A program made the position numbers and the translations under genes. Under the pieces are notes generated by a model. It was not told the DNA's origin, made no database searches, and worked only from the letters and a program-made list of their open reading frames with translations. A DNA stretch of 64,000 nucleotides. Source: Thiomicrorhabdus arctica DSM 13458 (GTDB lineage Bacteria; Pseudomonadota; Gammaproteobacteria; Thiomicrospirales; Thiomicrospiraceae). Below, in pieces: positions 3,276-54,177 of the stretch. How positions within the stretch are numbered: position 1 is the first letter of the stretch; the number at the start of each line of letters is the position of its first letter. The stretch covers positions 1,240,001-1,304,000 of the forward strand of contig NZ_KB905899.1 of the NCBI RefSeq assembly GCF_000381085.1, read 5' to 3'.

Positions 3276-3287
3276 ACCAGGCCTGGT
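3276..3287. repeat. Palindromic element ACCAGGCCTGGT, copy 1
   Basis: Exact 12-bp palindrome 20 bp after the serB stop and 23 bp before the shared terminator. Immediate flanks (CGCT / CATT) are not complementary, so the palindrome is limited to 12 bp here. Confidence 0.9.
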
Positions 3288-3310
3288 CATTTTTAAAACC
3301 TCAATAAAAA

Positions 3311-3344
3311 AGCCGAGAGAATTGAGATTCTCTCGGCTTTTTTA
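3311..3344. terminator. Bidirectional terminator between serB and the metallo-hydrolase gene
   Basis: A 12-bp perfect stem (AGCCGAGAGAAT / ATTCTCTCGGCT) with a TGAG loop. It has an A-run on the left and a T-run on the right, so it can stop convergent transcription from both sides. Confidence 0.95.
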
Positions 3345-3370
3345 TTGAAAACTGTTTTGCTTAGGTCACA

Positions 3371-4366
3371 TTAAAACAGATTGCTTTCTACTTCAGCTGC
3401 AGCAATTCCAATATAGTTACCAATGGTCGAATCATACCCTGGCCAATTACTCGCGACCTCCTTCATAAATGGATTTGCTAAAATCTTTGGCTTCATTTCA
3501 AAATCAGATAGGCCCTCATCATAGTACTTAGCCGCATCACCATAGATGATTTCACAGAAGGTCTGCATATCATTACAAATGGCCGCATCATCGTGCGGAC
3601 CATGCCCTAACAGATAATGATCACACCCCAAGGCTTTGACTTCTTTCATGGTATGGATAGTGCCGGCAAAAGAACCATCAGCCATGTTAGCGACCCGACG
3701 CATCGCCGTATCGCCTATGTAAGCCAATTTGTCTTCCACCACCTGAACAATCAAATCAGACTCGGTATGCGCTTTACCAAACTGGTGAATCTTAATCGTT
3801 GTATCGCCAAGCGTAAATGTCTCACCACCGACAAAGGTTTTAGTCGGTAACGTCACAATCGTACCTGAAATTGCGTTATCAGAGTTACGCTGCATAAAGT
3901 TATACCAGAAGGCACCATTATCTTTTTTAATATTCGCAATACACGTTGGATGCGCATAGATTTCAACATCAGGATAAGCCTCAACAAAAGCATGATTACC
4001 CAAGAAGTGATCCCCGTGATAATGGGTATTAATGACTTTCACAACAGGCTTATCCGTTATTTTTTTGATTTGGCGGAGCACCATTTCACCGATTTGCACC
4101 GAACTGCCGGTATCAACCACAATGACCCCTTCGCTGGTAACAATGAACCCAGGGTTGTTAAAGAAAGCATGGTTTTCCGGGCTTGGTCCAGCATCCTTAG
4201 CCAAAATATAGTAAGAACGGTCCGTCACTTTAGTGGGTGTAACATCATACATCGGCTCAGCACGAACCATTAGGTCATCACTGGCGTATAATGGTTTGAT
4301 GGCTGACATTCCCACCAGACCGACTGAAAAACTTAAAGCTGACTTTAACAAATCACGACGTTTCAT
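3371..4366 (-). CDS. Tat-exported metallo-beta-lactamase-fold hydrolase (SoxH-like)
   Basis: A 331-residue protein with a Tat-type signal (KRRDLLK at residues 2-8, then a hydrophobic stretch ending near ...LYASD), so it is probably exported folded. The metal-binding motif HYHGDH is at residues 115-120, preceded by the VVDTG strand motif typical of the fold; later metal ligands appear as GKAHTESD and LLGHGPHDD. This arrangement matches periplasmic SoxH-like and quinoprotein-associated hydrolases found in sulfur oxidisers. The substrate is not established. It is transcribed leftward alone, converging on serB across a shared terminator. Confidence 0.85.
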   Translation of the reverse strand: MKRRDLLKSALSFSVGLVGMSAIKPLYASDDLMVRAEPMYDVTPTKVTDRSYYILAKDAGPSPENHAFFNNPGFIVTSEGVIVVDTGSSVQIGEMVLRQIKKITDKPVVKVINTHYHGDHFLGNHAFVEAYPDVEIYAHPTCIANIKKDNGAFWYNFMQRNSDNAISGTIVTLPTKTFVGGETFTLGDTTIKIHQFGKAHTESDLIVQVVEDKLAYIGDTAMRRVANMADGSFAGTIHTMKEVKALGCDHYLLGHGPHDDAAICNDMQTFCEIIYGDAAKYYDEGLSDFEMKPKILANPFMKEVASNWPGYDSTIGNYIGIAAAEVESNLF

Positions 4367-4646
4367 TGACTCTTCCTATCGATAATTAACATTTAATTGA
4401 AATTCTTTAGATTTTATCACCTTTGACGATTCACGAACACTCCTACTTTTACGAAGAAACTGTCTCACACCATGACAATAACATTCCATTAAACCCATGG
4501 TTTTAACATGCCTTTTCTCACTGAGAATCATAAAAAGACAGTATTCAGTCATACATTTCATTATAAAACGCTGATAAAAAGATTAAAATATTCAGCCAGA
4601 CAGTCCCTGTAAAATTCGCACCTCGACACTCAAATGGATAAACAGA

Positions 4647-5099
4647 ATGGAATTTTTAAAAGCCTATCTTGATCTCGGCATATTTGGTCTTTTAGGCCTA
4701 ATGGGCTTTATTGCCTTATGGATTACTATTGAAAGAGTCCTTTTCTTTCGCGCTTTGAAAATTAAAGAATTTGAACATGGCGCTTACCTGCATATTGAGA
4801 TGACGAGACATCTGACGACCCTCTCAAGTATCGGTGCGAATGCCCCTTATGTTGGTTTGCTCGGAACAGTCGGTGGCATTTTAATTACTTTTTACGACCT
4901 AGGCCAGCAACAGAGCATTGATACGGGTTCAATTATGCTCGGTTTAGCTTTAGCCCTTAAAGCGACTGCGGCGGGCATCGCCCTTGCCATCCCGTGCATT
5001 ATGGCTTACAACGGTTTGATGCGAAAAGTCGATGTTTTCAATGCGCTCTACCGAGCACAACACCCCTCAAGCACTCTAAATAAACCCGCTGTAAATTGA
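4647..5099 (+). CDS. exbB: ExbB-type proton channel subunit of a TonB system
   Basis: A short (150-residue) MotA/TolQ/ExbB-family protein. It has an N-terminal membrane span (residues 10-32) and the conserved NAPYVGLLGTVGGI segment (about 64-77), followed by the ALKATAAGIALAIP segment (about 101-116) that forms the third span. With ExbD it forms the proton channel that drives TonB. The small size is typical of the short ExbB class rather than the roughly 240-residue enterobacterial protein. First gene of the exbB-exbD-tonB operon; the next gene starts 7 bp downstream. Confidence 0.93.
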   Translation: MEFLKAYLDLGIFGLLGLMGFIALWITIERVLFFRALKIKEFEHGAYLHIEMTRHLTTLSSIGANAPYVGLLGTVGGILITFYDLGQQQSIDTGSIMLGLALALKATAAGIALAIPCIMAYNGLMRKVDVFNALYRAQHPSSTLNKPAVN

Positions 5100-5106
5100 G
5101 ACCTTT

Positions 5107-5517
5107 ATGAATCATCGAGAAATGCCCCGTTTTGATGCCATTAATGTCATCCCATTAATCGATGTTATCTTGGTTCTATTGGCCATCGTGTTAACCACGG
5201 CCAGTTTTATTGTGAAAGATAATTTAAAAATTGAACTGCCTCAAACGACCAGCACACAAAGTTATGTGCCGTCTGAAGATCAAACCCCCATCCATTTTGA
5301 TATTGATAAAGACAATCAGCTCTTTTTGGATGAACAACTGCAAACTCTGCAATTTACAGAACAATTCCTAACAACCTTAACCAAAGAGCAAACCATCATC
5401 ATCCAAGTAGACAAAAAAGCAGAATTCGGGACCTTTGTTGGTCTCATTGATGCCTTAAAAGCGCACCAACTCAATAACTTGACTATTCTGACTCAATCCA
5501 AGCCCGTAAAAAAATAG
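5107..5517 (+). CDS. exbD: ExbD/TolR-family biopolymer transport protein
   Basis: A 136-residue single-span protein. The N-terminal DAINVIPLIDVILVLLAIVL region (about residues 10-29) contains the conserved membrane aspartate (IPLIDV) that carries protons in ExbD and TolR. The rest is a periplasmic domain ending in the typical strand-rich fold with QVDKKAEFGTFVGLIDALK. It works with the preceding exbB product and is followed 10 bp later by tonB, so all three are almost certainly cotranscribed. Confidence 0.93.
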   Translation: MNHREMPRFDAINVIPLIDVILVLLAIVLTTASFIVKDNLKIELPQTTSTQSYVPSEDQTPIHFDIDKDNQLFLDEQLQTLQFTEQFLTTLTKEQTIIIQVDKKAEFGTFVGLIDALKAHQLNNLTILTQSKPVKK

Positions 5518-5527
5518 AATATGCAGT

Positions 5528-6379
5528 ATGAAATCGACTACTAACGTCTCATTTATTATGACTGTATTTATATATGCTTCTGTTCTGTTAGTGGGTTATT
5601 GGCTGTTCTCTTTAGACATAAAAGAACCCAACCCACAGCCTGTAAAACCGAGTACGCTTCCGCTTACCTTAAACATGTTCCAATCTGCGAAGCCGACTAT
5701 TCAAACGATCGTTATGCCACCCGCCGTTGAAACCGAGGTCATTGAGAAGCCTGTTGTGAAACCCAGCATACAGCCAATCACTGAATCTAAACCTGTATCG
5801 AAACCCAAGCCTATCACGGCAAAACCAGTTTTGAAAAAAACGGCTCCGTCAGCTGAACCAGTCACCCCAAAACCTAATGTTAGTCATACCAAAGTCATCA
5901 AGCTAAAATCGCCGAAGCCGTCAAAGTCGAAGGTAACGCCCGCTAAAGAACTCGTTACCAAGCCGAGACCAACCTTAGCGGCCAAACCCAACTCAGCAGC
6001 GACTCAAACAACCAATACTGAGGCAAAAGTTGTTGAACCACACGTAAATAACGAGGTGAACAGGCAACAACAAGCGAATGCCGAACAAACGTATCTAAAC
6101 GCACTGAGGAGTGAAATCTTATTGCATGCGCAAGACACCTACCCAAGACGCGCCAAACGCCGTCGCTGGGAAGGCGTTGTCACCGTTTCATTCACCTTGC
6201 TTCCATCTGGCAAAATCCTGGGGGTAAGTATTCAAAAATCATCCGGTAGATCCATATTAGATGATGCAGCTACCAGTATTTTTCAAAGCAAAATGCACAA
6301 TCAATTTCACTCCTTTCCAGCGGAAATTACCCGCAAAGAGTGGCGTATAACCATTCCCGTTAGCTACCACCTCAGATAA
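5528..6379 (+). CDS. tonB: TonB energy-transducing protein
   Basis: A 283-residue protein with the three-part TonB layout: a single N-terminal membrane anchor (about residues 7-27), a long Pro/Lys-rich periplasmic spacer (about 35-175), and a C-terminal domain starting at YPRRAKRRRWEG with the conserved V-x-V-x-F...G-x-i pattern and an SSGRSILDDAA helix. TonB transmits the proton-motive energy gathered by ExbBD to outer-membrane receptors for iron chelates or vitamins. No TonB-dependent receptor gene is in the window, and I could not recognise a convincing Fur box upstream of the operon. Confidence 0.93.
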   Translation: MKSTTNVSFIMTVFIYASVLLVGYWLFSLDIKEPNPQPVKPSTLPLTLNMFQSAKPTIQTIVMPPAVETEVIEKPVVKPSIQPITESKPVSKPKPITAKPVLKKTAPSAEPVTPKPNVSHTKVIKLKSPKPSKSKVTPAKELVTKPRPTLAAKPNSAATQTTNTEAKVVEPHVNNEVNRQQQANAEQTYLNALRSEILLHAQDTYPRRAKRRRWEGVVTVSFTLLPSGKILGVSIQKSSGRSILDDAATSIFQSKMHNQFHSFPAEITRKEWRITIPVSYHLR

Positions 6380-6487
6380 AATCACACGACAGTAAATCCC
6401 CCTATTTTTATAAGATTTTAATTTACCTACGTTTTGGTACACTGTACGCATTAAAAAATATTAAAAATAAACTAATAGGAACGTTTT

Positions 6488-6922
6488 GTGGACTACACCC
6501 TGCCAACCAAAACCATAGATGAAACCAAAGCGGATTTAGTCAAACGTTTCACCCATTTTGCCAACCCTAAAGATCGGTACAAATACCTCATTGATATGGG
6601 TAAGCAGCTGCAAATGCTCGATGAAGATTTTCAGACGGAAGAAAATCGTATTCACGGCTGCCAGTCTCAGGTATGGATTCATATTGAAGAGAAAGATGGA
6701 CATCTGTTTATGCAAGCCAAAAGTGATGCGGCAATCGTGTCGGGGCTGATTGCATTATTGCTGAGAATTTATCATGGTCGCACCCCACAGGAAGTCGCTA
6801 CGACGCCGTTAGAATTTTTAGGTGAAATTGGTTTATTACAGCAGTTATCACCTAACCGCTCTACCGGTTTATATCATATGATTAAACGCATTCAGGCAGA
6901 AGGTCAACGTCGTTTTGTTTAA
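6488..6922 (+). CDS. SufE-family cysteine desulfurase sulfur acceptor
   Basis: A 144-residue protein of the SufE/CsdE family. It accepts persulfide sulfur from a cysteine desulfurase for iron-sulfur cluster or cofactor assembly. The acceptor cysteine is at residue 58 in the conserved IHGCQSQVW motif, and the later RIYHGRTP helix is also typical. No sufS or other suf gene is adjacent, so whether it is SufE or CsdE is open. Translation starts at GTG, placed by an AGGA site about 8 bp upstream. Confidence 0.92.
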   Translation: MDYTLPTKTIDETKADLVKRFTHFANPKDRYKYLIDMGKQLQMLDEDFQTEENRIHGCQSQVWIHIEEKDGHLFMQAKSDAAIVSGLIALLLRIYHGRTPQEVATTPLEFLGEIGLLQQLSPNRSTGLYHMIKRIQAEGQRRFV

Positions 6923-7032
6923 CCACTATCCAAGCTTTAACCCTATTTTATTGACTCTACATTTAAATATATTAAAAAAATACTAAAAAAATTTATACTA
7001 AATTTGCTTGAAAATAATACTAGGAAGACTTT

Positions 7033-8901
7033 ATGTTTTGTACAAAATACATTAATAAAATATCTAAAATTACACATGAAAAGCAACAATCTGATGCGAT
7101 TGTAGACGCCATAAACCGCTCTATGGCAACCATTGAGTTTGATAAAACTGGAAAAATCATTACCGCGAATGATCTATTTCTTCAGACCATTGGATATAAA
7201 CTGTCTGAAATACAAGGTCAACACCACCAGATGTTTGTGACAGCAAAAGATGTCAATACCCCTGAATACCGAGAGTTTTGGCAGGCATTGGCTCGAGGTG
7301 AGTTTCAGCAAGGCTTGTATCTACGAAACTCTAAACAAGGTGACCATATTTGGTTACAAGCTTCCTACAACCCTATTTTAGATGAAGATGGCCAAGTCGT
7401 TAAGGTGATAAAATTCGCAACCGATCTCACCATACCAACCAAACGAAACATCGACTTAGAGAACCAGTTTGTTGCCATAAATCGTGCATTAGCAGTGATT
7501 GAATTTGACATGCAAGGCATTATTCTGAGCGCCAATGACAACTTCACAAACACGGTTAGTTACAGCGCATCCGAAATTATCGGGCAACCTCATAGTACTT
7601 TCGTGAGTGAAGAGGTTAAAAACAGTTCAGAATATAAAAACTTTTGGAATAAATTACGCCAAGGTGAATATATCAACGGGACCTTCAAGCGTCTTGATAA
7701 AAATGGCAACGTGATTTGGTTAGAAGCGGCCTATAATGCCATTTTAGATGGTGAAGGCAATCCGTATAAAGTCGTCAAGTATGCGATGGACGTGAGCAAC
7801 AATGATCTAACAAAATCCCTTGCGACTGCAATCGATGAGTGTGCTGATGTATTGAGCGCAATCTCTGAAGGGGATTTAACTCGACGTGTGGAAGGTGAAT
7901 ACGAAGGAAATTTGGTCAACCTAAAATCCACCATCAATGACACGATCACCCAACTTTCGAGCTTAATCAGTAACATTAAAGAGGTCGCCAATACGGTTTA
8001 TAGTGAGGTCCAACAGGTTGAACAAGGGTCATTGGATTTAAATGAACGCGTACAAAGACAAGCCGCAGCACTTGAAGAAACTTCAGCTACCATGGAAGAG
8101 ATAAACGCTTCTGTGCAAAATAATAATAAAAATGCCCAAGATGTCACACAACTGTCTAAAAAAGTACAGGAACAAGCCACCGAAGGCAGTTCCGTCATGC
8201 AAGACACCATTGCAGCCATGAGCACTATTGAAGAATCAAGCCAACGTATCCATGACATTGTGAGCTTAATCGATTCAATCGCCTTTCAGACAAACCTACT
8301 CGCCTTGAATGCAGCTGTTGAAGCCGCAAGAGCAGGTGAGCATGGTCGAGGTTTTGCAGTCGTTGCCGGAGAAGTTCGCTCCCTTGCACAGAAAGCAGCG
8401 GATGCTGCCAAAGACATCAAAGTTCTGATTGAAGAAAGTACGCAACGCGTCCAGAAAGGCTCTGAACTTGCTAGCCATTCAGGACAAACGCTCCAAGAAA
8501 TAACCACATCAATCCAGCAAGTTCATCAAATGATGATACAGATAGGAAAAGCCTCTCAAGAACAAGAAGAAGGGGTCAGTCAGGTTAATACGTCTATAGG
8601 CGACCTTGACTCAACCACACAGCAAAATGCGGCAATGGTTGAAGAGACAGCGGCATCCGCAGAAGCCATGAAACATCAATCTGAGCAATTATTAAACATT
8701 GTCAGCAAATTCCGTATGAGCCAGGAAAACATTCCAAGCTTCAATTCAGAGACAGTGCCAAACGTCTTACCACGCCCTAAATTGAATCAAACCACCCCAC
8801 CAATTCAATCACCCAAGCTTGAAAAAACCAGACCTACCCAAGCGATTGAAAAAAAATCAGTACCGGTCGCGGCTGAAACTGCAGAGTGGTCTGACTTCTA
8901 A
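7033..8901 (+). CDS. Soluble methyl-accepting chemotaxis protein with two PAS domains
   Basis: A 622-residue receptor with two tandem PAS domains (about residues 20-130 and 145-255), a HAMP-like stretch near 260-315 ([17 protein letters not shown]), and a long signalling coiled coil. The CheA/CheW-binding hairpin tip is near 417-450 ([19 protein letters not shown]). There is no membrane span, so this is a cytoplasmic, Aer/BdlA-like sensor; the PAS domains suggest redox, oxygen or flavin sensing, though the ligand cannot be read from sequence. The C-terminal 70 residues are Pro-rich and probably disordered. It ends in a terminator and has no che genes beside it. Confidence 0.95.
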
Positions 8902-8912
8902 TCCCCTCCTAA

Positions 8913-8942: not shown

Positions 8943-9216
8943 TCTATCACGCCTAAAACAGTTATCTTTTGTTCAATAAGCTTTCGCACTCACGCGCATC
9001 CATTAATCACACCACAAACCATCTCAGCCACACCATTTAACCAGGCCTGGTCAAATCTGAAAGCGCTATAGCCATAGCAATGAAAACAACTGAGTTCACG
9101 TAGAAACCTCCCCTTTTGTAAGCCATCGTCAGTTCACTTAAATAAAATGAACGGTCTATAAATATTAAAAAGGCTTCTCAATGTAAAATTTAAAACAGTA
9201 TATATTCTATTAAAAA
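8943..9216. other. AT-rich gap holding palindrome copy 2
   Basis: Between the chemoreceptor terminator and the interrupted AT-rich gene. Apart from the palindromic element at 9040 I see no ORF, RNA gene or clear terminator for the leftward gene. Confidence 0.5.
9040..9051. repeat. Palindromic element ACCAGGCCTGGT, copy 2
   Basis: Exact 12-bp core. With its flanks ATTTA / CAAAT it forms a 22-bp imperfect palindrome (9035-9056) in which only the base pair next to the core (A opposite C) fails to match. Confidence 0.9.
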
Positions 9217-9906
9217 TTAACTTCTATCGCTGTTAAGCACCGATTCTCTTGTTTCTCCAAAAGTTTCACAAACTTTTTTTGCCGCCTCAATAGTAACCTT
9301 GTGAATTCTATCTTTGATTGAATGCCTTCCACCGTATGAATCATATATAACCACTTTAATACGAGCTATATTGTTTGTTGTTTTTGGGTACATACTTCCC
9401 CATGATTCATCTTGTTCGAAATATACTATTCCGTTGCAACCTTGCCCCTCACGTAAATAAGTATCAACACTATTATTAGTCAACTGATTTCGCTACATCA
9501 AAAAAGGGTAGACTTTAAAGTCTTCTCCTAAAGGCGTTACAAAATCGGACTTTGAAATAATTAAATGCTTTAACCAAAACCACCTAAAGGGATTTTTATA
9601 AGCCTTAGATTTATAACCAACATGAATACCTTCTATACTCGTTGGTGCTGAACCAATATTTTTAACCGACAAATACAAAGATATTGCAGTCCTATGGGTA
9701 CCAACATCATTAAACTGTCTATGAGTATCATATGATGCACAAAATGTTGGTCCCTTTAATATTTCAATTTTTAGTTTCGGCTTTCTTATTAATGCTCTAA
9801 AAACACCACTAATCCAACCAACTATAATAGTTATAATAAAAATTAACAGTCCCAAAAAACCTGAGTTTGTATTTGTCCAAACAATCACATTATTAATAAT
9901 ATCCAT
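9217..9906 (-). pseudogene. AT-rich hypothetical gene interrupted by one in-frame amber codon
   Basis: Two open stretches lie in the same minus-strand frame: 9493-9906 (137 residues, one N-terminal membrane span near residues 17-38, then a domain with LYLSVKNIGSAPTSIEGIHVGYK) and 9217-9483. They are separated only by a TAG at 9493-9495 and three sense codons. Joined, they read ...VYPFLM-stop-RNQLTNN..., giving a membrane-anchored protein of about 229 residues whose second half (TYLREGQG, GIVYFEQ, IKVVIYDSYGG) looks like the natural continuation. A CAG-to-TAG change would explain the break. Base composition is clearly more AT-rich than the neighbours, suggesting acquisition. Function unknown; it could also be two separate products or a readthrough gene. 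Confidence 0.7.
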
Positions 9907-11076: not shown

Positions 11077-11088
11077 ACCAGGCCTGGT
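11077..11088. repeat. Palindromic element ACCAGGCCTGGT, copy 3
   Basis: Exact core between htpX and gatB. Flanks AACTG / TAGTT extend it to a 22-bp imperfect palindrome (11072-11093) with a single G-T mismatch next to the core. Confidence 0.9.
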
Positions 11089-12630: not shown

Positions 12631-14085
12631 TTATTGATACTGTGCTGGCATGTGTTTATGCCAATCAGTGACTTGTTGAAACTGATGACCAATATTCAGC
12701 AATTTAGCTTCACTGAAATAGGGCCCCACAATATGCAATCCTACTGGGCGATTATTTGCAAAACCGGCCGGTACGGATAAAGCAGGCAGTCCTGCTAAGT
12801 TGACAGGTATGGTATACAAATCAGCTAAATACATACTGACTTGATCGTCTGACTTCTCACCAATATTAAAAGCGGACGTTGGCGCGACAGGCCCCATAAT
12901 GACGTCACAGCTTTCAAAGGCTTTCGTAAAGTCATCACGCACCATACGGCGTAATTTTTGCGCCTTCAGATAGTAAGCATCGTAATAACCGGCTGACAAG
13001 GCGTAAGCTCCCACCATAATTCTACGCTTAACTTCTTCACCAAATCCTTCTGAACGCGAACGTTTATAAAGGTCTTCTAAACCTGTAGGCTGATCGCAAC
13101 GATAACCAAAACGGACACCGTCATAGCGAGATAAGTTCGCCGATGCTTCTGCTGGTGCTAAGACATAATAGGCTGGCACGGCTAAATCTTTATTCGGTAA
13201 GTGCACTTCTACCACTTCTCCGCCGAGCTTTTCGACTTCCGAGATTGCCGTTTTAATAACCACTTCCACTTCAGGATCTAAGCCTGCCCCAAAATACTCA
13301 GCAGGCACACCAACTTTTAGGCCCTTAAGGGATTGACCTAATTCGGCCGTATAGTCGGTTTTTTCACGATTAAGACTGGTCGAGTCACGTTCATCGAATC
13401 CTGCCATTGCGTTGAGCATCCAGGCTGAATCTTCCGCTGAACGAGTCATTGGACCAGCTTGATCAAAACTAGAAGCATAGGCGATAATTCCAAAACGAGA
13501 AACGGCACCGTACGTTGGTTTAATGCCCGTTATGCCACAAAAAGACGCCGGCTGACGAACCGAACCACCCGTATCCGTTCCAGTCGCTAAAGGGGCAAGC
13601 CCTGCAGCAATCACAGCGGCTGACCCTCCTGAAGAACCGCCGGGAACGGCTTTATGATCCCAAGGATTTTTGGTTGGGCCATAATAACTACTCTCTGAAG
13701 AAGAGCCCATCGCGAACTCATCCATATTGGTTTTACCCAAGATAGGCATGCCTATTTTATTCATTAAGGTCACTACGTGTGCATCATAGGGTGCGATAAA
13801 ATTATCCAACATCTTAGAACCGCAAGATGTTTTAACGCCATCGGTACAGAAGATATCTTTATGTGCCACCGGAATACCGGTGAGTAATTCAGCATCCCCC
13901 GCGGCAAGTTTCTGATCCGCGGCTTCTGCCATAGAGATTGCTAGCTCGGGGGTCACGGTGACAAACGCGTTTAAATCAGCATCATATTGTGAGATGCGAT
14001 CAAGGTAGTGTTGCGTTAACTGCACGCTGGTAATCTCACCAGAGTGTAACTTTTCGCTCATTTGTTTAATGGTTAAATTGTGCAT
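12631..14085 (-). CDS. gatA: Asp-tRNA(Asn)/Glu-tRNA(Gln) amidotransferase subunit A
   Basis: The glutaminase subunit of GatCAB, which releases ammonia from glutamine and passes it to GatB. It belongs to the amidase-signature family: the Ser-cis-Ser-Lys triad is visible as K76 (AHKDIF), S151 (GGSSGGS, 149-155) and S175 (TDTGGSVR). I place the start at the ATG 14083-14085 (MHNLTIKQ, 484 residues), because extending upstream would need a TTG that overlaps the gatC stop, and GatA proteins normally begin close to this point. A GGA element lies about 9 bp upstream. Confidence 0.97.
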
Positions 14086-25632: not shown

Positions 25633-25644
25633 ACCAGGCCTGGC
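25633..25644. repeat. Palindromic element, copy 4 (one mismatch)
   Basis: ACCAGGCCTGGC, differing from the core at the last base. It lies between the convergent hslO and DyP peroxidase genes, 36 bp after the hslO stop. No other terminator-like hairpin is obvious in this gap. Confidence 0.8.
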
Positions 25645-25745: not shown

Positions 25746-26651
25746 TTAGCGTAGCATCTCCTGCAAATCATCAATCGCTGGCGCGAACCAATAGGAGCCA
25801 GAAACCGCTTTTGAATAGTTAATTAACTGGTCGATCTTTTTGTCCTCCGTTAAACCATACATGCTCTCTAATTGACTCGTAAAGCGTTTTAATTCACATG
25901 CAAATGCTAGAAATAGCAGCCCCTTTTCTTGCACCGTGCCAAAAGGCGCAGAGCGTCGATACATTTTCATTGCTACGCCATCCATGTCTAAATCGGTACG
26001 ACTTATATGCGAATCATCGGGCATGGCATTACCCTCTAATTCAAGATTTTCATCTTTGGTTCGACCAATAATGCCTTCTTGGCAACGCACTGGAACAGCA
26101 TTCCATTTAGCGAGATCATGCACCCATTTTTGGCTTAAAACTAAACTCCCACCTTCGCCCACTTGGCCTTTTGGAATCACCGCCGCCTCTCGTTTTAACG
26201 CTTCCGTTTCCGGATTGGCTGTCCCATCTTCAAACCCCGTCAAGTCCATACTATGATGATAATCAAAACCTTGCTGCTCGAGTGTCAGTTCAGCAACCAC
26301 CTGCATGTTATTATGTATCTGCATAGCCTGATCAAAAACCACCCCCATATTAATGCCTTGTATCCAAAAGAACACGTCGGCTTGGGTAGAGGGTGCAATA
26401 TGACTCTGCTGACCATAAAGTGTCATAAAATCTTCTAGAGATGCAGGAGTCCAATCCGGCTGTAACCGGTGCCAGGCCTGTTTACCAAAACTCACGACTA
26501 ATGAAATATCGTCGGGGTTGATATTAGCCATCGCACCGACAATCGAGTGCTTTATCTCTTTTAGGTTTAAACGGTTAAGTCGGTATTCTAGAAAATGCAT
26601 ATGTTGTTCATTTTCTCTAAAAATTCCTATTTGAGGAAATTTCATCGGCAT
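25746..26651 (-). CDS. Dye-decolorising (DyP-type) heme peroxidase
   Basis: A 301-residue DyP-type peroxidase. The family hallmark GFEDG is at residues 139-143, with the catalytic aspartate D142. The proximal heme ligand is probably H215 in PDDSHISRTD, and the distal arginine is in YRRSAPFGT (about 231-239). There is no signal peptide, so it is cytosolic or loaded into an encapsulin shell; no encapsulin gene is nearby. Such enzymes use hydrogen peroxide to oxidise bulky or porphyrin-like substrates. Just upstream of its start lies palindrome copy 5, then yaaA, a second peroxide-linked gene. Confidence 0.94.
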   Translation of the reverse strand: MPMKFPQIGIFRENEQHMHFLEYRLNRLNLKEIKHSIVGAMANINPDDISLVVSFGKQAWHRLQPDWTPASLEDFMTLYGQQSHIAPSTQADVFFWIQGINMGVVFDQAMQIHNNMQVVAELTLEQQGFDYHHSMDLTGFEDGTANPETEALKREAAVIPKGQVGEGGSLVLSQKWVHDLAKWNAVPVRCQEGIIGRTKDENLELEGNAMPDDSHISRTDLDMDGVAMKMYRRSAPFGTVQEKGLLFLAFACELKRFTSQLESMYGLTEDKKIDQLINYSKAVSGSYWFAPAIDDLQEMLR

Positions 26652-26685: not shown

Positions 26686-26697
26686 AACAGGCCTGGT
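26686..26697. repeat. Palindromic element, copy 5 (one mismatch)
   Basis: AACAGGCCTGGT between yaaA and the DyP gene. Its flanks AACGG / TCGTT keep the same architecture as copies 2, 3, 6 and 9: outer AACG / CGTT arms pair, with G-T next to the core (26681-26702). Confidence 0.8.
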
Positions 26698-27505: not shown

Positions 27506-27665
27506 ATTAAGATCCTTGTGATTTTCAGCTATTTTATGGCCGTTTAATTTGTGAGTCATTATAGACGATTACCTGAAGTTCGGGTCTAGAAAACGGGGCT
27601 TTGAAGCAAATTCCAAAATCCACCAAGCCTGATTTAATTCACACGGGCAATTAGTTTTATGAGAG

Positions 27666-31515: not shown

Positions 31516-31674
31516 AAGGCTAATACTCGGTTAAAATAAACTTTTTACGCATAGTTAATGATTATCCGCTTGATGTCAAATTCTCAATTAAATTTTTTTG
31601 GATCATTTATTCATTTTTCCCACATTAAAGTCGGGAGAGGAACACCTGTTTCCGTTGCAAAAAGGCTTCTGAAA

Positions 31675-33945
31675 ATGCGCCTAACGGTCGCCTTCCTCAT
31701 TTTTACTGGCCTCGCAATGATTCTTCTTAGCACACAAAGTTTCGCTGAAAGTCTCAGTGATAATTCCGCCAGTCGCTGCCTGCCAGAGTTGATCACACCC
31801 TTGCAGAAGATTCCAGCTCAGCCTTCTGGATCCATCGCAGCACAAGACACGCCCGCCCCACAAAACCTAGAAGCGGACGAACTCACACAACCCAGCACAA
31901 ACACTTATCAACTAACTGGTGCAGCTACCTTTAAACAACCAGGCCTGGTCGTTTTAAGCGATAAGATGCTCTATAACAAGACTGAGAAAACAGCAGATTT
32001 CTTTGGCAACGTTGAACTCCACCAACCACAAATACTGATTACCGCGGAACAAGCTCAACTTGATGAAAACTCACAGACTGCTACCTTAAAACAGACCGAG
32101 TACCAGATTTTGCCAAGCCGTGTTTATGGTCAATCTAAACAAATCGTTATTAATCAAACAAATGAAAATGCTCAACTGGACCGCGCCAGCTTAACCGCTT
32201 GTAGGCGACAGGCAGATAAGAGTGTTCCATGGGATTTAAAGTTTGGTGAACTGCATATTAATAACCAAACACGGCGCATGGTGGGTAAGAACACGACCTT
32301 ATATTTTAAAGATGTGCCTATTTTCTACACGCCCTACTTTGACTACCCTTTGGATGATCGTGCCAGCGGTTTGCTTTTTCCAGAATTTGGCAGCTATAAG
32401 TCATTGACTCAAGACAAGACCATGAGCTACCTTAAATTGCCCTATTTTTTCAATATCGCTCCCAATATAGATGACACCCTCACCGTTATGCCAATGACTC
32501 AACGTGGCTTGGCACTGGATAATGAGTTTCGTTACCTAGGTAAACATGGCAATGCCACACATAATGTCGTATTGGATGTCACGGCTTTACAGGATCAACT
32601 TGTCGTCGAAGACCGTTTAAAAAATCGGTGGCGCACAAGCCTTAATGCCAGTCAAAACTGGGGTAAAGGCTTAACCAGTGATGTGCTTTGGCATGAAGTT
32701 TCTGATGAAAACTTTTTTGCAGACATTCCCGTTAACCCGGCCTTAAACACCGTGACACAGACCGAACGTCATATTCAACTTGACTACCGTCAAGGTAATT
32801 TACACAGCTATGCACAAATCTTAAACCATTTAAGACTACGTGATGCAGTGCCTAACTATGAAAAAATGCCAGAAATCGGAATAGATTACAGCCGCCAAGT
32901 AGACCACTTTAGGATGGATATGCAAGCAAATGCGACCGAGTTCGCGATGTCGAATATTCAACACTCCAATCCAGAAGCTTTGCGAGTTCACTTACAACCT
33001 GCACTTGAATACCAGCTACGTAAACCGTTTGGTAGTCTTAAAAGCACCATAGTCGCCAATCAGACACAGTATCAGATGCATGAAAATGGTTTTAATAACA
33101 CAGGGGAATCATCTATTAATCGATTTGTCCCGCAATTTGCGCTCAAAGGTGCATTGATGTTTGAACGTCAACTTGAACTATTTGGCAAACACTATACGCA
33201 AACCTTAGAACCACAAGTTCAATACCTCTATGTTCCTTATGAAAATCAGTCAAATTTACCTTTGTTTGACACGGCAACTCGTAGCTTAGCATTCAGCAAT
33301 CTTTTTACTCTGAATCGCTTTACGGGTTCTGACCGTATTGGCGATGCTAATCAGGTAGCCAGTGCGCTGACATCTAAATTGCTCAATGATAACGGGCGTC
33401 AAATTGCCGATATCGGAATTGGTCAAATTGTCTATTTTTCAGATCGCCAAGTCATGCTTACCGGCAATATACCCGACAGATCTGCCGTTTCTGATATTTT
33501 TGTCAAGTTAGGGCTAAATCTCCCAAAACTCTATTTTTCATCCACCATTCAACTCACTCCAGATGACTACCGTTTGACCAACAGTAACAGTCGCTTAAAG
33601 TGGCAACCTAACCAAAACAATACGGTTTTGCTGAATCACCTAGCACAAAACCAGGGCACCAATAGTGAAACTGAAGTCATTAGTCTAGGTGGCTTCACGC
33701 GCATTAATCATGAGTGGGAAGTGGGCATTTATGCAAACTATGACCTACAGAATGACCAACTTTTTGCGTCTAATATGGGCTTAAGATACGATAGTTGCTG
33801 CTGGGCCGCAGAAATCGTTGCAGAACATACACAACTTATAAATGGCTTGTATAATGATAGCATCCAAATTCAGTTTGAATTGAAAGGTATCGGCACGGCG
33901 AACCAGAGTTTCAAAAACGATTTCGCTCGGAAACTGAACTTTTAG
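31675..33945 (+). CDS. lptD: LPS-assembly outer-membrane protein LptD
   Basis: LptD is the outer-membrane barrel that inserts lipopolysaccharide into the outer leaflet. From the ATG at 31675 the 756-residue precursor has a signal peptide (MRLTVAFLIFTGLAMILL..., cleavage near SFA-ES), a periplasmic beta-jellyroll with TKTADFFGNV-type repeats, and a C-terminal barrel starting near YFKDVPIFYTPYFDYPLDDRA. A Cys-Cys pair near the C-terminus (SCCWAAEI) fits the family's interdomain disulfide. The frame opens 39 codons earlier, but that part is not signal-like. Palindrome copy 9 lies inside the coding region. First gene of lptD-surA-pdxA-rsmA-apaH. Confidence 0.97.
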   Translation: MRLTVAFLIFTGLAMILLSTQSFAESLSDNSASRCLPELITPLQKIPAQPSGSIAAQDTPAPQNLEADELTQPSTNTYQLTGAATFKQPGLVVLSDKMLYNKTEKTADFFGNVELHQPQILITAEQAQLDENSQTATLKQTEYQILPSRVYGQSKQIVINQTNENAQLDRASLTACRRQADKSVPWDLKFGELHINNQTRRMVGKNTTLYFKDVPIFYTPYFDYPLDDRASGLLFPEFGSYKSLTQDKTMSYLKLPYFFNIAPNIDDTLTVMPMTQRGLALDNEFRYLGKHGNATHNVVLDVTALQDQLVVEDRLKNRWRTSLNASQNWGKGLTSDVLWHEVSDENFFADIPVNPALNTVTQTERHIQLDYRQGNLHSYAQILNHLRLRDAVPNYEKMPEIGIDYSRQVDHFRMDMQANATEFAMSNIQHSNPEALRVHLQPALEYQLRKPFGSLKSTIVANQTQYQMHENGFNNTGESSINRFVPQFALKGALMFERQLELFGKHYTQTLEPQVQYLYVPYENQSNLPLFDTATRSLAFSNLFTLNRFTGSDRIGDANQVASALTSKLLNDNGRQIADIGIGQIVYFSDRQVMLTGNIPDRSAVSDIFVKLGLNLPKLYFSSTIQLTPDDYRLTNSNSRLKWQPNQNNTVLLNHLAQNQGTNSETEVISLGGFTRINHEWEVGIYANYDLQNDQLFASNMGLRYDSCCWAAEIVAEHTQLINGLYNDSIQIQFELKGIGTANQSFKNDFARKLNF
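31938..31949. repeat. Palindromic element ACCAGGCCTGGT, copy 9, inside lptD
   Basis: Exact core within the coding sequence, read as part of QPGLVV. Flanks AAACA / CGTTT extend it to a 22-bp imperfect palindrome (31933-31954) with a single A-C mismatch beside the core, the same design as the intergenic copies. Confidence 0.85.
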
Positions 33946-40010: not shown

Positions 40011-40032
40011 AAATGACCAGGCCTGGTCATTT
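40011..40032. repeat. Palindromic element, copy 6, perfect over 22 bp
   Basis: The best copy in the window: the ACCAGGCCTGGT core (40016-40027) with flanks AAATG / CATTT gives a perfect 22-bp palindrome. It lies between the convergent DsrE-family gene and the channel gene, 7 bp from the end of the latter. Confidence 0.95.
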
Positions 40033-44385: not shown

Positions 44386-44397
44386 GCCAGGCCTGGT
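44386..44397. repeat. Palindromic element, copy 7 (one mismatch)
   Basis: GCCAGGCCTGGT, differing from the core at the first base; flanks are not complementary. Confidence 0.8.
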
Positions 44398-48359: not shown

Positions 48360-50003
48360 TTAATTTTCGAGCGCTTTATACTTTTCGCGCAGACGGTTAC
48401 GAATGGTAATTGCTCCTAAGTTCAATGACACAATAATAATCACTAATAACAGTGAGGTAGCATAAACCAAGGGTTGTGCCGCTTCAACATTCGGACTCTG
48501 AAAACCGACATCATAAATATGGAAGCCTAAATGCATAAATTTATTGTCTAAATGAATAAAAGGTGCCACCGAATCAATTGGTAATTCAGGTGCTAACTTG
48601 ACCACACCCACCAGCATCAACGGTGCAACCTCGCCTGCCGCACGGGCAATGGCTAAAATCAAACCCGTCATAATGGCAGGAGTTGCCATGGGTAAAACAA
48701 TCTTCCAGATCGTTTCAGACTTGGTGGCGCCTAATGCTAACCCGCCTTCGCGTAAGGACATGGGGATGCGAGACAAACCTTCCTCAGTCGAGACGATGAC
48801 GACCGGCAAGGTTAATAAAGCCATGGTTAAAGAGGCCCAAAGCAAGCCAGGTGTACCAAAAGTGGGACTTGGCAGCGCATAACCGTAGAATAACTCATCA
48901 ATTGAGCCCCCTATAATGTATACGAAGAAACCAAGGCCAAATATACCGAATACTATAGAAGGCACACCGGCTAAGTTATTAATAGAGATGCGAACTAAAC
49001 GTAGTATCAATCCATCTTTAGCATACTCACGCATATAGATGGCCGCAACAACCCCCATTGGGGTCACGAACACCGTCATTAATAAGACCATGACGATCGT
49101 ACCAATCATAGCAGGAAAAATACCGCCTTCTGTGTTTGCTTCTCGAGGATCTTCACTGATAAAATGCCCAATAGAACTGAAGAAAAACCCAAGTTTTTCA
49201 ACGTAGTTCATATTGTTAGGTTGCCAAAATTGAACCACCTTTTCAACGGGCACTCTTAATACTTGCCCGTTACTAATAGCGACAGCCACCTCACCCAATG
49301 TCTCCTTTTGGTCATATAAAACTTTCACTTCTGCTTGGTAAGCTATAAACGTTTTTTGAAACTCAGCACGTTCTGCTTTTAAACGACTCTCATCCTCCGG
49401 CGTAAAGGCCCCTTTAATGCGGAGCTTCTTCTCTTCAAAACGTAGATCTTCAATATGCTTATTGACAGCGCCCATATCGAATTTTTCAATTGAGGTTATC
49501 GCAGAATGAAGTGCCTTGCCTTTCGCAACTTGGACTTGTAATTCTGAACGAATCTGAGTTGGATCATTGGTCGTCTTGCCATTCAACGTAAAAGATGAAA
49601 AATGCCCATAAACATTCCCGTACTCATATCGCTCAATAACGACCGGATCCTTCGCTAAGGTGTCCATTTTTCCTTGAACATTTTCAGAACTGACCCATTT
49701 AAAGTCAATTCCGAAAACATCTCGGTTTCCCATTTTAATAAGGTATTGTGGAATCAGTGTTTTTAAACCGGATGCTTCCACTACGACTTTGTTTTTAGTT
49801 TCTTGTAACTCGCCTAATATCCGAGTTGTGTCACCATTCGGGCTACCAATATTAAACTCATATACTGGATGTGGCCAAAAATGCGCCAAGCCTTTATAAG
49901 AAATCATTGCCAATAGGCTCAAAACCAATACCACACTGATACTAACCGTCGAGGCACTTAGCCAGATCCAATGCTCGCCTTTGTTTAACCATTCTTTCAT
50001 CAT
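48360..50003 (-). CDS. pstA: Phosphate ABC transporter permease PstA, long form
   Basis: A permease of the Pst transporter. The 547-residue protein is much longer than E. coli PstA (296). After the first membrane span (about residues 16-37) there is an extra-membrane insertion of roughly 230 residues with a charged, coiled-coil-prone stretch, before the usual five-span permease core (from about 290), which contains the coupling loop EGLSRIPMSLREGGLALGATKSE. Such long PstA forms occur in other gammaproteobacteria. Ends 97 bp before pstB and follows pstC by 7 bp. Confidence 0.93.
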   Translation of the reverse strand: MMKEWLNKGEHWIWLSASTVSISVVLVLSLLAMISYKGLAHFWPHPVYEFNIGSPNGDTTRILGELQETKNKVVVEASGLKTLIPQYLIKMGNRDVFGIDFKWVSSENVQGKMDTLAKDPVVIERYEYGNVYGHFSSFTLNGKTTNDPTQIRSELQVQVAKGKALHSAITSIEKFDMGAVNKHIEDLRFEEKKLRIKGAFTPEDESRLKAERAEFQKTFIAYQAEVKVLYDQKETLGEVAVAISNGQVLRVPVEKVVQFWQPNNMNYVEKLGFFFSSIGHFISEDPREANTEGGIFPAMIGTIVMVLLMTVFVTPMGVVAAIYMREYAKDGLILRLVRISINNLAGVPSIVFGIFGLGFFVYIIGGSIDELFYGYALPSPTFGTPGLLWASLTMALLTLPVVIVSTEEGLSRIPMSLREGGLALGATKSETIWKIVLPMATPAIMTGLILAIARAAGEVAPLMLVGVVKLAPELPIDSVAPFIHLDNKFMHLGFHIYDVGFQSPNVEAAQPLVYATSLLLVIIIVSLNLGAITIRNRLREKYKALEN

Positions 50004-50010
50004 GACTCTC

Positions 50011-52314
50011 CTACAATGAACCGTATTTACGTCGCATACGCTGTCTAACGACTTCTGCTAACGTATTAAACACAAAGGTAAAAATAAACAGCACTAGGCC
50101 GGCTAAGAATAAAACTCGATAATGTGAACTGGCGACTGCCGCTTCTGGCATTTCAATAGCAAGGTTAGCCGCCAAAGTTCGCATCCCTTCAAATAAATTC
50201 ATTGTCATCAGAGGGGTATTACCAGACGCCATTAAGACAATCATCGTTTCACCAACGCCTCGACCAAAGCCCAGCATAACTGCTGAAAAGATCCCTGGAC
50301 TCGCGGTTGGAATCACCACACCAATCAAGGTTTGCCAACCACTGGCACCCAAAGCAAGTGAACCATTGACGAGATAAGTAGGCACATTATAGATCGCATC
50401 TTCAGTGACCGAGAAAATGGTCGGAATGAGGGCAAAACCCATTGCAAACCCGATAACCATGGCATTACGTTGATCGAAATCAATGCCAGCACTGAAGGTT
50501 AACCAATGACGCATATCGCCATTAAACCAAGCGTTTTCCATTGGAGAACTCATTTGCATAGCAAACCAGCCAAGTAAAATGACAACAGGAATCATTAAAA
50601 TGGCACGCTTCCCTAGAGGAACACTATTACGAATTGATTTAGGCAGTCGGGTCCAGCCGAAACCAAACAAAATGACACCGACGGGAATCACAATCAAAAG
50701 GGCAAAGAAACCAGGTAGATTCTCTTCCATATGCGGCGCAAGCCACAGGCCTGCCAAAAACCCTAAAATAACCGTTGGTAGAGCTTCGATCATTTCAACT
50801 GTAGGTTTCACCCATTGCCGAGTTTGCCTGTCCATAAAAAAGGCTGTAAATATTGCCGCTAAGATCGCAATCGGGACGGCAAATAGCATGGCATAAAAAG
50901 CGGCTTTAATGGTTCCGAAAGTCAAAGGCATTAGGGAAAACTTCGGTTCAAAGTCGGAACTTGCCGAAGAGGACTGCCAAGTATAAGTCGGTTCTGAATA
51001 ACCTTCGTACCAAACTTTACTCCATAAGCTTGAGAAAGAGACATCAGGATGATCATTGTCAATATCATACTGAACCAACTCACCATCTTGTGTTTCCACT
51101 AAAGCTCCATTAGAACGAGGGGCCATCACGACCAGGCCTGCAGCGCCTTGAGAAACCTGCTTAGTCGCTAGATGGCGTTCAGCGGTAGAGTTATACAGTT
51201 TAAATTCTCCAGCAGCATCCGTGACCGCAAAACCTTTGCGCCCTTTTTCAATCGCAATTGACTGAATCGGTGAGTCACTGACTTTAAATGAACGAATGTG
51301 CTGTAAAGAGAAAATATTATCATTATCACGGACTGGGAACCATTGGTGAACATTCCCTTTATCCGTACCGATCATCAAAGAGTAGTCACCTAATAAAAAG
51401 CGAATCACCGTTGGGTGCTCACTATTCTCGACTAGAGCTACATGCTGTAATAAACTCGGCGCTTCCAAGTCAGATAGATCGTAGTAATCTGCCGTACCAT
51501 TTTTAGAGATCACATAAAGGTTACGTCCACTACCATCGAGCATTAACCACTTTGGAATCATAGTCGATTCAAAATCAACCGATGAATCTTCTTCTAGGCT
51601 GACTGAGTCATTGAACATAGACTCTGTTTTAGAGAAGGATTTAATTGCAACTCGCTTAGATCCTTTTGTCTGATAAGCCACTCGGACCTCTTCATCCAAT
51701 GACTTAATCGCTAACGACTGAATAGCTGAATCACTGACTTGAAGAATATCTTTACCATATGGATAAGTGACTTCAGGTGAGACTACGCGCTGATCATTCG
51801 GGTAACTAATTTGATAACCGTATTTAGCAAACAGTATCCCGCCTTCTGAAAGGCCGAATGCAACCAGATTCTGCAATTCATTGACCACCGTAAAGCTTGT
51901 GATACTCTGACCTTGTAGTGGCAAATCTTCTGTCAGCTGAATACGACCATCCGCTAGATCAAAGCCGATTAGTTTACCTGACTCAGTCATTCTCATTGCA
52001 GAAGATTTGTATTCATCCACACCATAATAGAGCGTCTTTTCAGCATGACCGCCCGGTAGATCATAACGTTGATGTTGCTCAACACTGGCTGGAACAAATA
52101 AGGGAATAACGACGTATAGCAAAAAGAACATAATTAATAGGACTGAAAAAATAACGCCTATACCGCCAATGGAGATACCCCACTTAACGAGTTTGTCCTT
52201 GATATTTCTGCGTTTGATTCGCTTTTCAAACGCCGGCCCTGTGAGAGCAGCCTCTAAAGTCGAATGAGGTTTTTTGTCCCCTGCTGTAGTCATATGCTTT
52301 TTAACCTGTTTCAT
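50011..52314 (-). CDS. pstC: Phosphate ABC transporter permease PstC, long form
   Basis: The partner permease of PstA. At about 767 residues it is more than twice the E. coli size. After one membrane span (about residues 42-66) comes a domain of some 400 residues with repeated strand motifs (for example VISKNGTADYYDLSD, LIGFDLADGRIQL, IGTDKGNVHQW), read as a WD40-like propeller. The permease core follows, with the EAA loop (LALGASGWQTLIGVVIPTASPGI). The start is uncertain: the frame opens at a GTG (52374) that lies upstream of the predicted promoter start point, so ATG 52314 (or 52293) is preferred. Confidence 0.9.
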   Translation of the reverse strand: MKQVKKHMTTAGDKKPHSTLEAALTGPAFEKRIKRRNIKDKLVKWGISIGGIGVIFSVLLIMFFLLYVVIPLFVPASVEQHQRYDLPGGHAEKTLYYGVDEYKSSAMRMTESGKLIGFDLADGRIQLTEDLPLQGQSITSFTVVNELQNLVAFGLSEGGILFAKYGYQISYPNDQRVVSPEVTYPYGKDILQVSDSAIQSLAIKSLDEEVRVAYQTKGSKRVAIKSFSKTESMFNDSVSLEEDSSVDFESTMIPKWLMLDGSGRNLYVISKNGTADYYDLSDLEAPSLLQHVALVENSEHPTVIRFLLGDYSLMIGTDKGNVHQWFPVRDNDNIFSLQHIRSFKVSDSPIQSIAIEKGRKGFAVTDAAGEFKLYNSTAERHLATKQVSQGAAGLVVMAPRSNGALVETQDGELVQYDIDNDHPDVSFSSLWSKVWYEGYSEPTYTWQSSSASSDFEPKFSLMPLTFGTIKAAFYAMLFAVPIAILAAIFTAFFMDRQTRQWVKPTVEMIEALPTVILGFLAGLWLAPHMEENLPGFFALLIVIPVGVILFGFGWTRLPKSIRNSVPLGKRAILMIPVVILLGWFAMQMSSPMENAWFNGDMRHWLTFSAGIDFDQRNAMVIGFAMGFALIPTIFSVTEDAIYNVPTYLVNGSLALGASGWQTLIGVVIPTASPGIFSAVMLGFGRGVGETMIVLMASGNTPLMTMNLFEGMRTLAANLAIEMPEAAVASSHYRVLFLAGLVLFIFTFVFNTLAEVVRQRMRRKYGSL

Positions 52315-52362
52315 GAGTTGACAAGATCTATTCAATTTTATAATGAGTCTAAATGTTCGAAG

Positions 52363-52396
52363 ATTATAATCCACTAATATGACAGCTAAATTGCAA
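52363..52396 (-). promoter_or_regulatory. Pho-box promoter of pstC
   Basis: On the minus strand TTGCAAT-TTAG-CTGTCAT has the PhoB 7-4-7 design (second half exact). It is followed after 10 bp by a perfect TATAAT, the spacing expected for a PhoB-activated promoter that lacks a -35 box. Transcription would start near 52355, upstream of the ATGs at 52314 and 52293. Confidence 0.8.
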
Positions 52397-52418
52397 AATA
52401 CATAAAACCTAAATGCGA

Positions 52419-52440
52419 CTTGTCATAAAACGGTAACATT
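52419..52440 (+). promoter_or_regulatory. Second Pho-box-like site, facing glnA
   Basis: TTGTCATAAAACGGTAACAT matches the E. coli Pho box (CTGTCATAAATCTGTCACAT) at 16 of 20 positions and is oriented toward glnA. It may help pstC from a distance or influence glnA; orientation is unusual for a pstC activator site. Confidence 0.55.
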
Positions 52441-52628
52441 TCTATGAAAAATAACATTAAGACTGACACTACACCGCCTATATACACTTTCTTGCACCAC
52501 TAAAAAGATGCAACGCACCATTATTTTTAACTTTACCACCCTACTAGGCCCCATTTAATTACTCTTGAATTTATGCCAAATGCTTTAAATTCAATTAGTT
52601 AAACTTTTAGTAGAAATAATTGGAATTT

Positions 52629-52645
52629 TGGCACGTTTCAAGCTA
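52629..52645 (+). promoter_or_regulatory. Sigma-54 promoter of glnA
   Basis: TGGCACG-TTTC-AAGCT: the invariant GG (-24) and GC (-12) dinucleotides are separated by exactly 10 bp, and the -24 half is a full match to the consensus. The -12 half is AAGCT rather than TTGCA. It lies about 50 bp before the glnA ATG. Confidence 0.8.
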
Positions 52646-52695
52646 ACATTCCTAAAGTTCTAATTTTTAATGTATAGCCCTAAAAGGATAGCAAA

Positions 52696-54102
52696 ATGTC
52701 TCAAGAGATTTTCGACTTAATTAAAGACAATGATGTAACGTGGGCTGATCTACGTTTTACAGATACACACGGTAAAGAGCAACACGTGACCATCCCTGCA
52801 TCAGCAATTGATGAAGATTTCTTTACTGACGGTGAAACGTTTGACGGTTCTTCAATCGCGGGTTGGAAAGGCATCCACAACTCAGACATGATCTTAATGC
52901 CTCAGACAGATGGTTTTGTTTTAGATCCGTTTACCAATGATCCTACCATCATTATCCGCTGTATGGTTGTTGACCCATCAAATATGGAATCTTATGAAAA
53001 AGATCCTCGTGGCATCGCTAAAAAAGCCGAGGCTTATTTAAAATCTACAGGCGTTGCCGATTCTGCGTTCTTTGGTCCGGAACCAGAGTTTTTCATTTTT
53101 GATGATGTGCGCTGGGGCTTAGATATGTCTGGTTCTTTTGTAAAGATTGATGCAGACGAAGCCTCTTGGAACTCAGAAAAAGTATTTGCTAACGGCAACG
53201 TTGGTCACCGCCCTGGCATTAAAGGTGGCTATTTTCCAGTACCTCCAGTAGATCAGTTACATGAAGTACGTGCAGACATCTGCGCAATGTCTGAAGCAAT
53301 GGGCCTAAAAATTGAAGCACACCACCACGAAGTCGCGACAGCTGGCCAGTGTGAGCTAGCAATTGCGGGTAACACCTTAACGGCTAAAGCCGATGAAGTT
53401 CAAATCCTAAAATATGCGGTACACAACACAGTGCACGCTCTAGGAAAAACAGCGACCTTTATGCCTAAACCAATCGTTGGTGATAACGGTAACGGTATGC
53501 ACATCAATATGTCTTTATCTAAAGATGGTAAGAACATCTTTGCAGGCGACGTCTATGCTGGTCTTTCTCAGGAAGCGATTTGGTACATTGGTGGTTTAAT
53601 GAAGCATGCTCGTGCATTAAATGCATTCACTAACCCGGGTACAAACTCTTACAAGCGTTTAGTCCCAGGCTTTGAAGCACCCATTTTACTAGCCTATTCT
53701 GGTTCTAACCGTTCTGCGTCTATTCGTATTCCATATGCTCCTTCTGAGCGTTCACGTCGTGTTGAGTTACGTTTCCCAGATCCAACGGCGAACCCATACT
53801 TAGCATTCGCTGCTTCGATGATGGCGGGACTTGACGGAATCATTAACAAGATCGATCCAGGCGCGCCTTCAGAGAAGGATCTATATGACCTTACTCCAGA
53901 AGAAGAAGCCACTTATGACACTGTTTGTGCATCATTAGAAGAAGCTCTAGATGCATTAAATGCAGATCGTGACTTCTTGACGGCGAGCGGTGTATTCACG
54001 GATGTGATGCTTGACTCTTATATCGAGCTGAAAATGGAACACGTTACTCAGTTACGTGCAACAACGCACCCAATTGAATTCGAGCTTTACTACTCTGCTT
54101 AA
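52696..54102 (+). CDS. glnA: Glutamine synthetase, type I
   Basis: GlnA makes glutamine from glutamate, ammonia and ATP in a dodecamer. The 468-residue protein has the beta-grasp start, [21 protein letters not shown], the [11 protein letters not shown] strand, [13 protein letters not shown] and NRSASIRIP. The adenylylation tyrosine is Y397 in DLYDLTPEE, so it is regulated by GlnE, whose gene lies convergent just downstream. The promoter is sigma-54 dependent by sequence, and the gene ends in a strong terminator. Confidence 0.99.
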
Positions 54103-54120
54103 TTCAGAACAGTAAGACAT

Positions 54121-54149
54121 AAAAAAGCCCGCTTTATGCGGGCTTTTTT
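54121..54149. terminator. Bidirectional terminator glnA / glnE
   Basis: Perfect 12-bp stem AAAAAAGCCCGC / GCGGGCTTTTTT with a 5-base loop, 18 bp after the glnA stop, between convergent genes. Palindrome copy 8 lies 17 bp further on. Confidence 0.95.
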
Positions 54150-54165
54150 ATGTCTGGTTAAAATA

Positions 54166-54177
54166 ACCAGGCCTGGT
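54166..54177. repeat. Palindromic element ACCAGGCCTGGT, copy 8
   Basis: Exact core between the glnA terminator and the end of glnE; flanks AAATA / AAAGC do not pair. Confidence 0.9.

Follow-up and report, generated by a model that had tools for sequence, protein, structure and literature searches.

What is the role of a short palindrome that recurs throughout a bacterial chromosome? The question is raised by a 64,000-nucleotide stretch of Thiomicrorhabdus arctica DSM 13458 (contig NZ_KB905899.1, positions 1,240,001 to 1,304,000; hereafter the window), which holds six exact and three one-mismatch copies of the 12-bp palindrome ACCAGGCCTGGT. The palindrome is probably (at roughly 55%) the local spelling of a signal like a DNA uptake sequence (DUS), common to many Thiomicrospirales. 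When up to two mismatches are allowed, 12 copies were found in the window, against a mean of 1.29 and a maximum of 4 in 100 shuffles. The host genome (G000, 2.55 Mb) contains 333 exact copies, while the reversed control word has 0. In 364 kb of this genome (15 stretches and the window), the copies number 31 exact, 20 with one mismatch and 18 with two. Each of 40 permuted palindromes of equal base composition gave 0 exact copies in the same 364 kb, with means of 0, 0.5 and 8.3 at zero, one and two mismatches, respectively. A first-pass annotation of the window had called the repeat strongly non-random, and this is confirmed by the genome-wide count, the shuffles and the permuted palindromes. 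Its nine coordinates and mismatch counts are also all correct.

The same annotation took the 12-mer for the entire site. However, the flanks are conserved as well, and the full site spans about 24 bp, AAAnYG-ACCAGGCCTGGT-CRnTTT. At the 31 exact sites of the host genome, read on both strands, A makes up 55–73% at 10–12 bp from the dyad. At 8 bp A never occurs and C or T accounts for 95%, and at 7 bp G leads (53%). A similar flank plan was found in four other rich genomes, with an A-rich pair at 9–10 bp in G071, a tract that is mostly T in G052 and T leading at 7 bp in G042; C or T at 8 bp reaches 76% in G071 and at least 92% in the other three. Five genomes with other spellings (8–22 sites each) also have the A-rich stretch at 10–12 bp and C or T at 8 bp. 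The A-tracts of the two sides are independent and follow no 'at least one side' rule, and a one-sided reading of the palindrome was rejected. Copies inside genes keep the flank rule too, with A at -8 in 0 of 22 half-sites in the host genome and in 3–15% in the other four genomes. Therefore, the flanks appear to be part of DNA recognition and not of RNA hairpins. An A/T-rich tract likewise adjoins the core of the uptake signal sequence (USS) of Pasteurellaceae, as the A-tract does here.

Among 62 genomes of the order Thiomicrospirales, the exact 12-mer ranges from 0 to 718 copies. Its core, CAGGCCTG, occurs 236–1173 times in 32 genomes and 0–74 times in the other 30, and the reversed control of the core stays at 0–36 over all 62. 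By genus, the core-rich genomes amount to 15 of 32 in g1, 7 of 11 in g18, 9 of 9 in g21 and 1 of 1 in g22. In a class sample of 369 genomes, the 365 outside the order hold at most five exact 12-mers each; within this sample, the palindrome is restricted to one order. Twenty-six of the 62 genomes lack both the core and every other spelling that was counted or found; samples (15–140 kb) of 13 of these yielded none. A GlnE tree of 29 genomes, whose deepest branches are weakly supported, places low-count groups among rich ones. Therefore, loss or replacement of the spelling is likely in the low-count genomes.

Other spellings take the place of the palindrome in several relatives. G024 contains 1025 copies of ACCGGCCGGT genome-wide (control 1) and only 12 of CAGGCCTG, and other genomes hold at most 15 ACCGGCCGGT (15 in G013 and 15 in G041). 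A non-palindromic form, AACAGGCCGGGT, occurs 482 times in G021 (control 1) and 275 times in its sister G004 (control 0), with balanced strands (242/240 and 137/138, respectively); G048 has 8 copies and the other 59 genomes have 0–3. In the GlnE tree, G021 and G004 group with G005, G040 and G018 (97/93), which carry 653–900 copies of CAGGCCTG. The G021 consensus is AAAcTcAACAGGCCGGGT, with an A-tract on one side only. The G053 dialect, AAAATCTGCCAGGCTGGG, is also asymmetric with a one-sided A-tract, and 10 exact 13-mers CTGCCAGGCTGGG were found in the 140 kb sampled. These one-sided sites form close inverted pairs, two exact ones among 22 sites in G021, one among 10 in G053 and, among the matches listed, at least six of AACAGGCCGGGT in G004 at 22–25 bp apart. 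Carriers with few exact 12-mers showed 3–6 copies each of AACAGGCCTGTT-like (G040, G005), GGCAGGCCTGCC-like (G018) or AGCAGGCCTGCT-like (G008) sites in samples of 25–40 kb, with mixed arm letters in all of them. As in DUS and USS, the species dialects have a common inner core, here a short one: GGCC in most of them and AGGC in that of G053. Samples of G003 (100 kb), G011 (140 kb) and G020 (80 kb) yielded no dialect, and neither did smaller ones from G014, G013, G041, G044, G046, G012, G017, G054, G059 and G050; the sampling left out G063, G043, G047, G060, G062 and G065. The word AAGGCCGC was prominent in 46 kb of G011 and was rejected as its dialect, as it did not rank with the leading words in 140 kb.

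In G048, which belongs to another genus, the eight sites of the G021 dialect lie on contigs C23, C69, C111, C141 and C157, and include one inverted pair 26 bp apart on C69. Either transfer or assembly contamination may account for them. Other repeats were met during the sampling. About 98 CTCGCTGCCGCC-type words in 40 kb of G020 (L147, L167) form a large repeat array. In 20 kb of G054 (L150), 34 ACCACAGCGGA and 18 AGCCGGCT were found, perhaps in the gene of a repetitive protein. G017 (L163, L107) has many poly-C tracts, with a count of 40 for CCCCCCCC in 26 kb, where 1.1 would be expected; this count takes in overlapping words.

The sites are placed unevenly with respect to genes. Of 232 exact sites in five genomes, 124 fall between genes, a count that includes six sites at stretch ends; the share per genome is 40–67%, compared with 9–17% of the bases (p 2e-8 to 3e-14 per genome). 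Genes were called for the context and flank analyses with a small purpose-written gene finder, and the intergenic fractions leave out the samples of 25–40 kb, for which they are unreliable. Pooled, convergent gaps hold 2.27 sites per kb, tandem gaps 0.84 and divergent gaps 0.26. In the five genomes, the median distance of intergenic copies past a stop codon is 28–61 bp. The scarcity of sites in divergent promoter gaps, the poorest of all gaps, makes a dimeric regulator, as suggested in the first-pass annotation, unlikely.

Many sites keep their place and some turn over. In the syntenic 20-kb pair G009/G015 (about 73–80% identity), six of the seven core sites of each genome have a counterpart in the other. 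In the pair G022/G042, of the same identity, counterparts exist for all four core sites of G022 and for four of six in G042. The site was kept in two gaps though the surrounding sequence is no longer alignable, and the sequence facing the four core sites without a counterpart differs by 4 to 7 mismatches. In the closest pair, the window and L009 (85–86% identity), the site past glnA persists with a single mismatch, the genic copies with the core at 50744 and 51131 of the window are not retained in L009, and an exact copy at 12931 on the reverse strand of L009 lacks a counterpart in the window. Enrichment between genes and conserved locations in relatives, which had been named as checks on the repeat, are thus established for many sites. 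Depletion from foreign DNA, a property of DUS and USS, was seen on one contig: the plasmid-like second contig of G019 (Rep3-type initiator, F-type TraN match) contains 2 exact sites against 13 expected (P = 2e-4), in the 40 of its 96.8 kb that were covered as the sole sample of foreign DNA. At L270:1917-5451, on this plasmid-like contig, two adjacent genes each contain several repeats of DUF285, a family named after Mycoplasma.

We propose that the natural-transformation machinery would include a surface receptor for DNA, with a preference for molecules that bear the site of about 24 bp. The receptor would recognise the central GGCC, the (A)CCA/TGG arms, the pyrimidine at 8 bp and the A-tract 10–12 bp from the dyad. 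With such biased uptake, DNA of the own kind would be imported and recombined in, and biased recombination would maintain the sites. Copies would then build up where they do little harm, often past stop codons. As the preference of the receptor shifts, the set of copies would drift to a new spelling, giving rise to dialects. The uptake reading is preferred because of the wholesale respelling between relatives, the one-sided dialects with their close inverted pairs, and a placement that seems driven by tolerance, past genes and rarely in divergent gaps. An uptake signal that builds up passively could readily be respelled at hundreds of sites, which would be hard for an essential network of protein-binding sites. 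ComEC is present in 56 of the 62 genomes of the order, and therefore uptake is plausible. More specifically, the sites may constitute a third, independently evolved uptake sequence system, with a palindromic site and symmetric A-tracts. Its receptor would bind in pairs or approach from either side, and its spelling would have switched several times, on at least two occasions (G021/G004 and G053) in favour of a one-sided form that is no palindrome; on this fuller version we are evenly divided.

The known systems show both likenesses and differences. The DUS of Neisseriaceae also number hundreds to thousands of copies, have dialects with a conserved inner core and form inverted pairs; theirs lie near gene ends. 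In Neisseria these pairs lie at terminators, and DUS accumulate via preferential uptake of DNA bearing them. From one species of Neisseriaceae, overlapping DUS pairs with dyad symmetry were described and read by the authors as a possible sign of dimeric recognition, which is a partial precedent for the palindromic form. In contrast to DUS, the dialects here are mostly palindromic with symmetric A-tracts and a lower copy number. The USS of Pasteurellaceae resembles the present site in its short core and genome-wide spread, but is not palindromic and is unrelated in sequence; its receptor is unproven, with PpdA/ComN predicted in 2025. The first-pass annotation had seen no match to known uptake sequences, which held true, though it did not consider a new one. 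In the open-licence literature, no description of the palindrome ACCAGGCCTGGT or of an uptake sequence in Thiomicrospira was found. Papers in which AGGCCTGG occurs together with a palindrome look unrelated, and a Hydrogenovibrio paper contained no relevant statement.

Several results weigh against an uptake signal. Exact copies outnumber one-mismatch copies in five genomes (31:20, 65:25, 52:27, 41:8 and 43:16), the opposite of DUS. Most dialects are palindromes, whereas USS and the majority of DUS are not. The symmetric site with its independently varying flanks fits an ordinary dimeric DNA-binding protein equally well, and the conserved positions may also mean selection on individual sites. 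ComEC does not discriminate, being present in 34 of 36 genomes with a dialect and 22 of 26 without (Fisher p 0.23). The receptor family of DUS, ComP_DUS (PF16732), had no match over the cut-off in the 62 genomes and one below it in G020; it had none in 14 control genomes either, hence the search had no positive control.

The sites might instead, with lower probability, be bound by a dimeric protein of the cytoplasm with a role in chromosome organisation or maintenance, such as a Noc-, SlmA- or nucleoid-protein-like one. The sites of MatP (matS), Noc and SlmA are dimeric palindromes scattered over the chromosome. The symmetric footprint of about 24 bp with independent half-sites, the positions kept at about 73–80% DNA identity in G009/G015 and G022/G042, and the scarcity of sites on the plasmid-like contig would all suit such a protein. 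The present sites differ in their even spread and in their hundreds of copies, and the consensus sequences of matS, Noc and SlmA sites are not known to be related to the palindrome. Evenness was not rejected for the per-stretch counts of the 10-mer CCAGGCCTGG in five genomes (chi-square p 0.47–0.92, with contig C1 and the window covered in the host genome), and no one-cycle trend round the chromosome was detected in four (p 0.23–0.94), at 10 to 16 stretches per genome. An origin–terminus bias was rejected on these tests, and regional confinement as for matS-type macrodomain sites was not found in them. They also count against the earlier idea of chromosome organisation in the form of a MatP-type regional organiser, although some nucleoid proteins bind evenly too. 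The rarity of sites in divergent gaps suggests tolerance and not placement. Furthermore, the spelling changes genome-wide, some dialects are asymmetric, and 26 genomes are without the core or another found spelling. A nucleoid-type binding site is a less likely role for the palindrome.

A methyltransferase site multiplied by a repair bias that depends on methylation, as in the highly iterated palindromes (HIPs) of cyanobacteria, is more doubtful. The first-pass annotation had listed a HIP1-like repeat among its candidate roles. This is a fair description. HIP1 and the alternate HIPs are also GC-rich palindromes in high copy, with other palindromes instead in some genomes, and 75 of 96 single-base deviations in five genomes fall at the two outer arm positions, which resembles them as well. 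The densest genomes, with about 550 core copies per Mb (G072), reach the low end of the 500–2500 per Mb given for HIPs; the host genome has only about 204 per Mb. HIPs are tied to methyltransferases and are mostly denser. Here, the methylation idea fails for the two families tested. PF00145 (m5C methylases) is found in 24 of 62 genomes and is absent from the host genome and from all nine motif-carrying g21 genomes. PF01555 (N4/N6 methylases) is found in 24 of 62 (21 over the cut-off) and is absent from the host genome and many carriers; both are absent from G000, G015, G052 and other carriers. No methyltransferase matching the palindrome across carriers was found in PF00145 and PF01555, other methylase families not having been searched. 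Unlike HIPs, the palindrome is about half intergenic, its flanks are conserved out to 12 bp from the dyad, and its alternates include the two non-palindromic dialects of G021/G004 and G053.

A family of intrinsic terminators or stem-loops would explain the copies shortly past stop codons, their density in convergent gaps and the T-runs that follow some inverted pairs of asymmetric copies, but it is very improbable, since 108 of the 232 palindromic copies are genic with the same flank rule, and arm pairing past the 12-mer is above chance at most positions and rarely significant. The remnant of a mobile or phage element, to which the high and patchy copy number might point, is the least probable and is largely refuted by the flank comparison, which puts the end of conservation at about 24 bp and so shows no longer unit of the repetitive extragenic palindrome or miniature inverted-repeat transposable element type; a viral origin was rejected, as 39 viral stretches with GACCAGGCCTGGTC carry one copy each.

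In the window itself, eight of the nine copies are intergenic according to the open reading frame (ORF) list, as the first-pass annotation had stated, with six in convergent gaps, two in tandem gaps and one in a gene. The exact copies in convergent gaps lie past a serB-like gene (3276..3287), past a chemotaxis-receptor-like gene (9040..9051), at 40016..40027 with the flanks AAATG-site-CATTT, and between glnA and glnE (54166..54177), where the same gap of L009 has the one-mismatch copy. Another exact copy occupies the tandem gap gatB/htpX (11077..11088), and the last is within an lptD-like gene (31938..31949 in 31558-33945), which matches NCBIfam LptD models under their curated cut-offs. The one-mismatch copies are past the Hsp33 gene in a convergent gap (25633..25644), in a tandem gap flanked by a yaaA-like and a Dyp-peroxidase gene (26686..26697), and past a phosphate transporter gene in a convergent gap (44386..44397). 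An identical one-mismatch 12-mer to this last copy is present in the nearest relative, L009, just beyond the aligned block, so that positional equality is unproven. Three more copies have two mismatches. The one at 26471..26482, within the Dyp-peroxidase gene, may be a degenerate site or a chance match; that at 27622..27633 is without the CAGGCCTG core and is probably chance; and that at 51131..51142, within an ABC-transporter permease gene, faces four mismatches in L009. A 137-residue ORF at 9493-9906 matched no NCBIfam or Pfam model at the thresholds applied.

If the sites belong to a chromosome-binding system instead, a network of hundreds of sites has been respelled between species, which would be just as unexpected. 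If the uptake reading is true, this would be the third case of uptake sequences, in sulfur-oxidising bacteria far from the known families, with palindromic and one-sided dialects in one group. A new receptor would be indicated, and comparison across the group could test how uptake specificity arises, switches and is lost.

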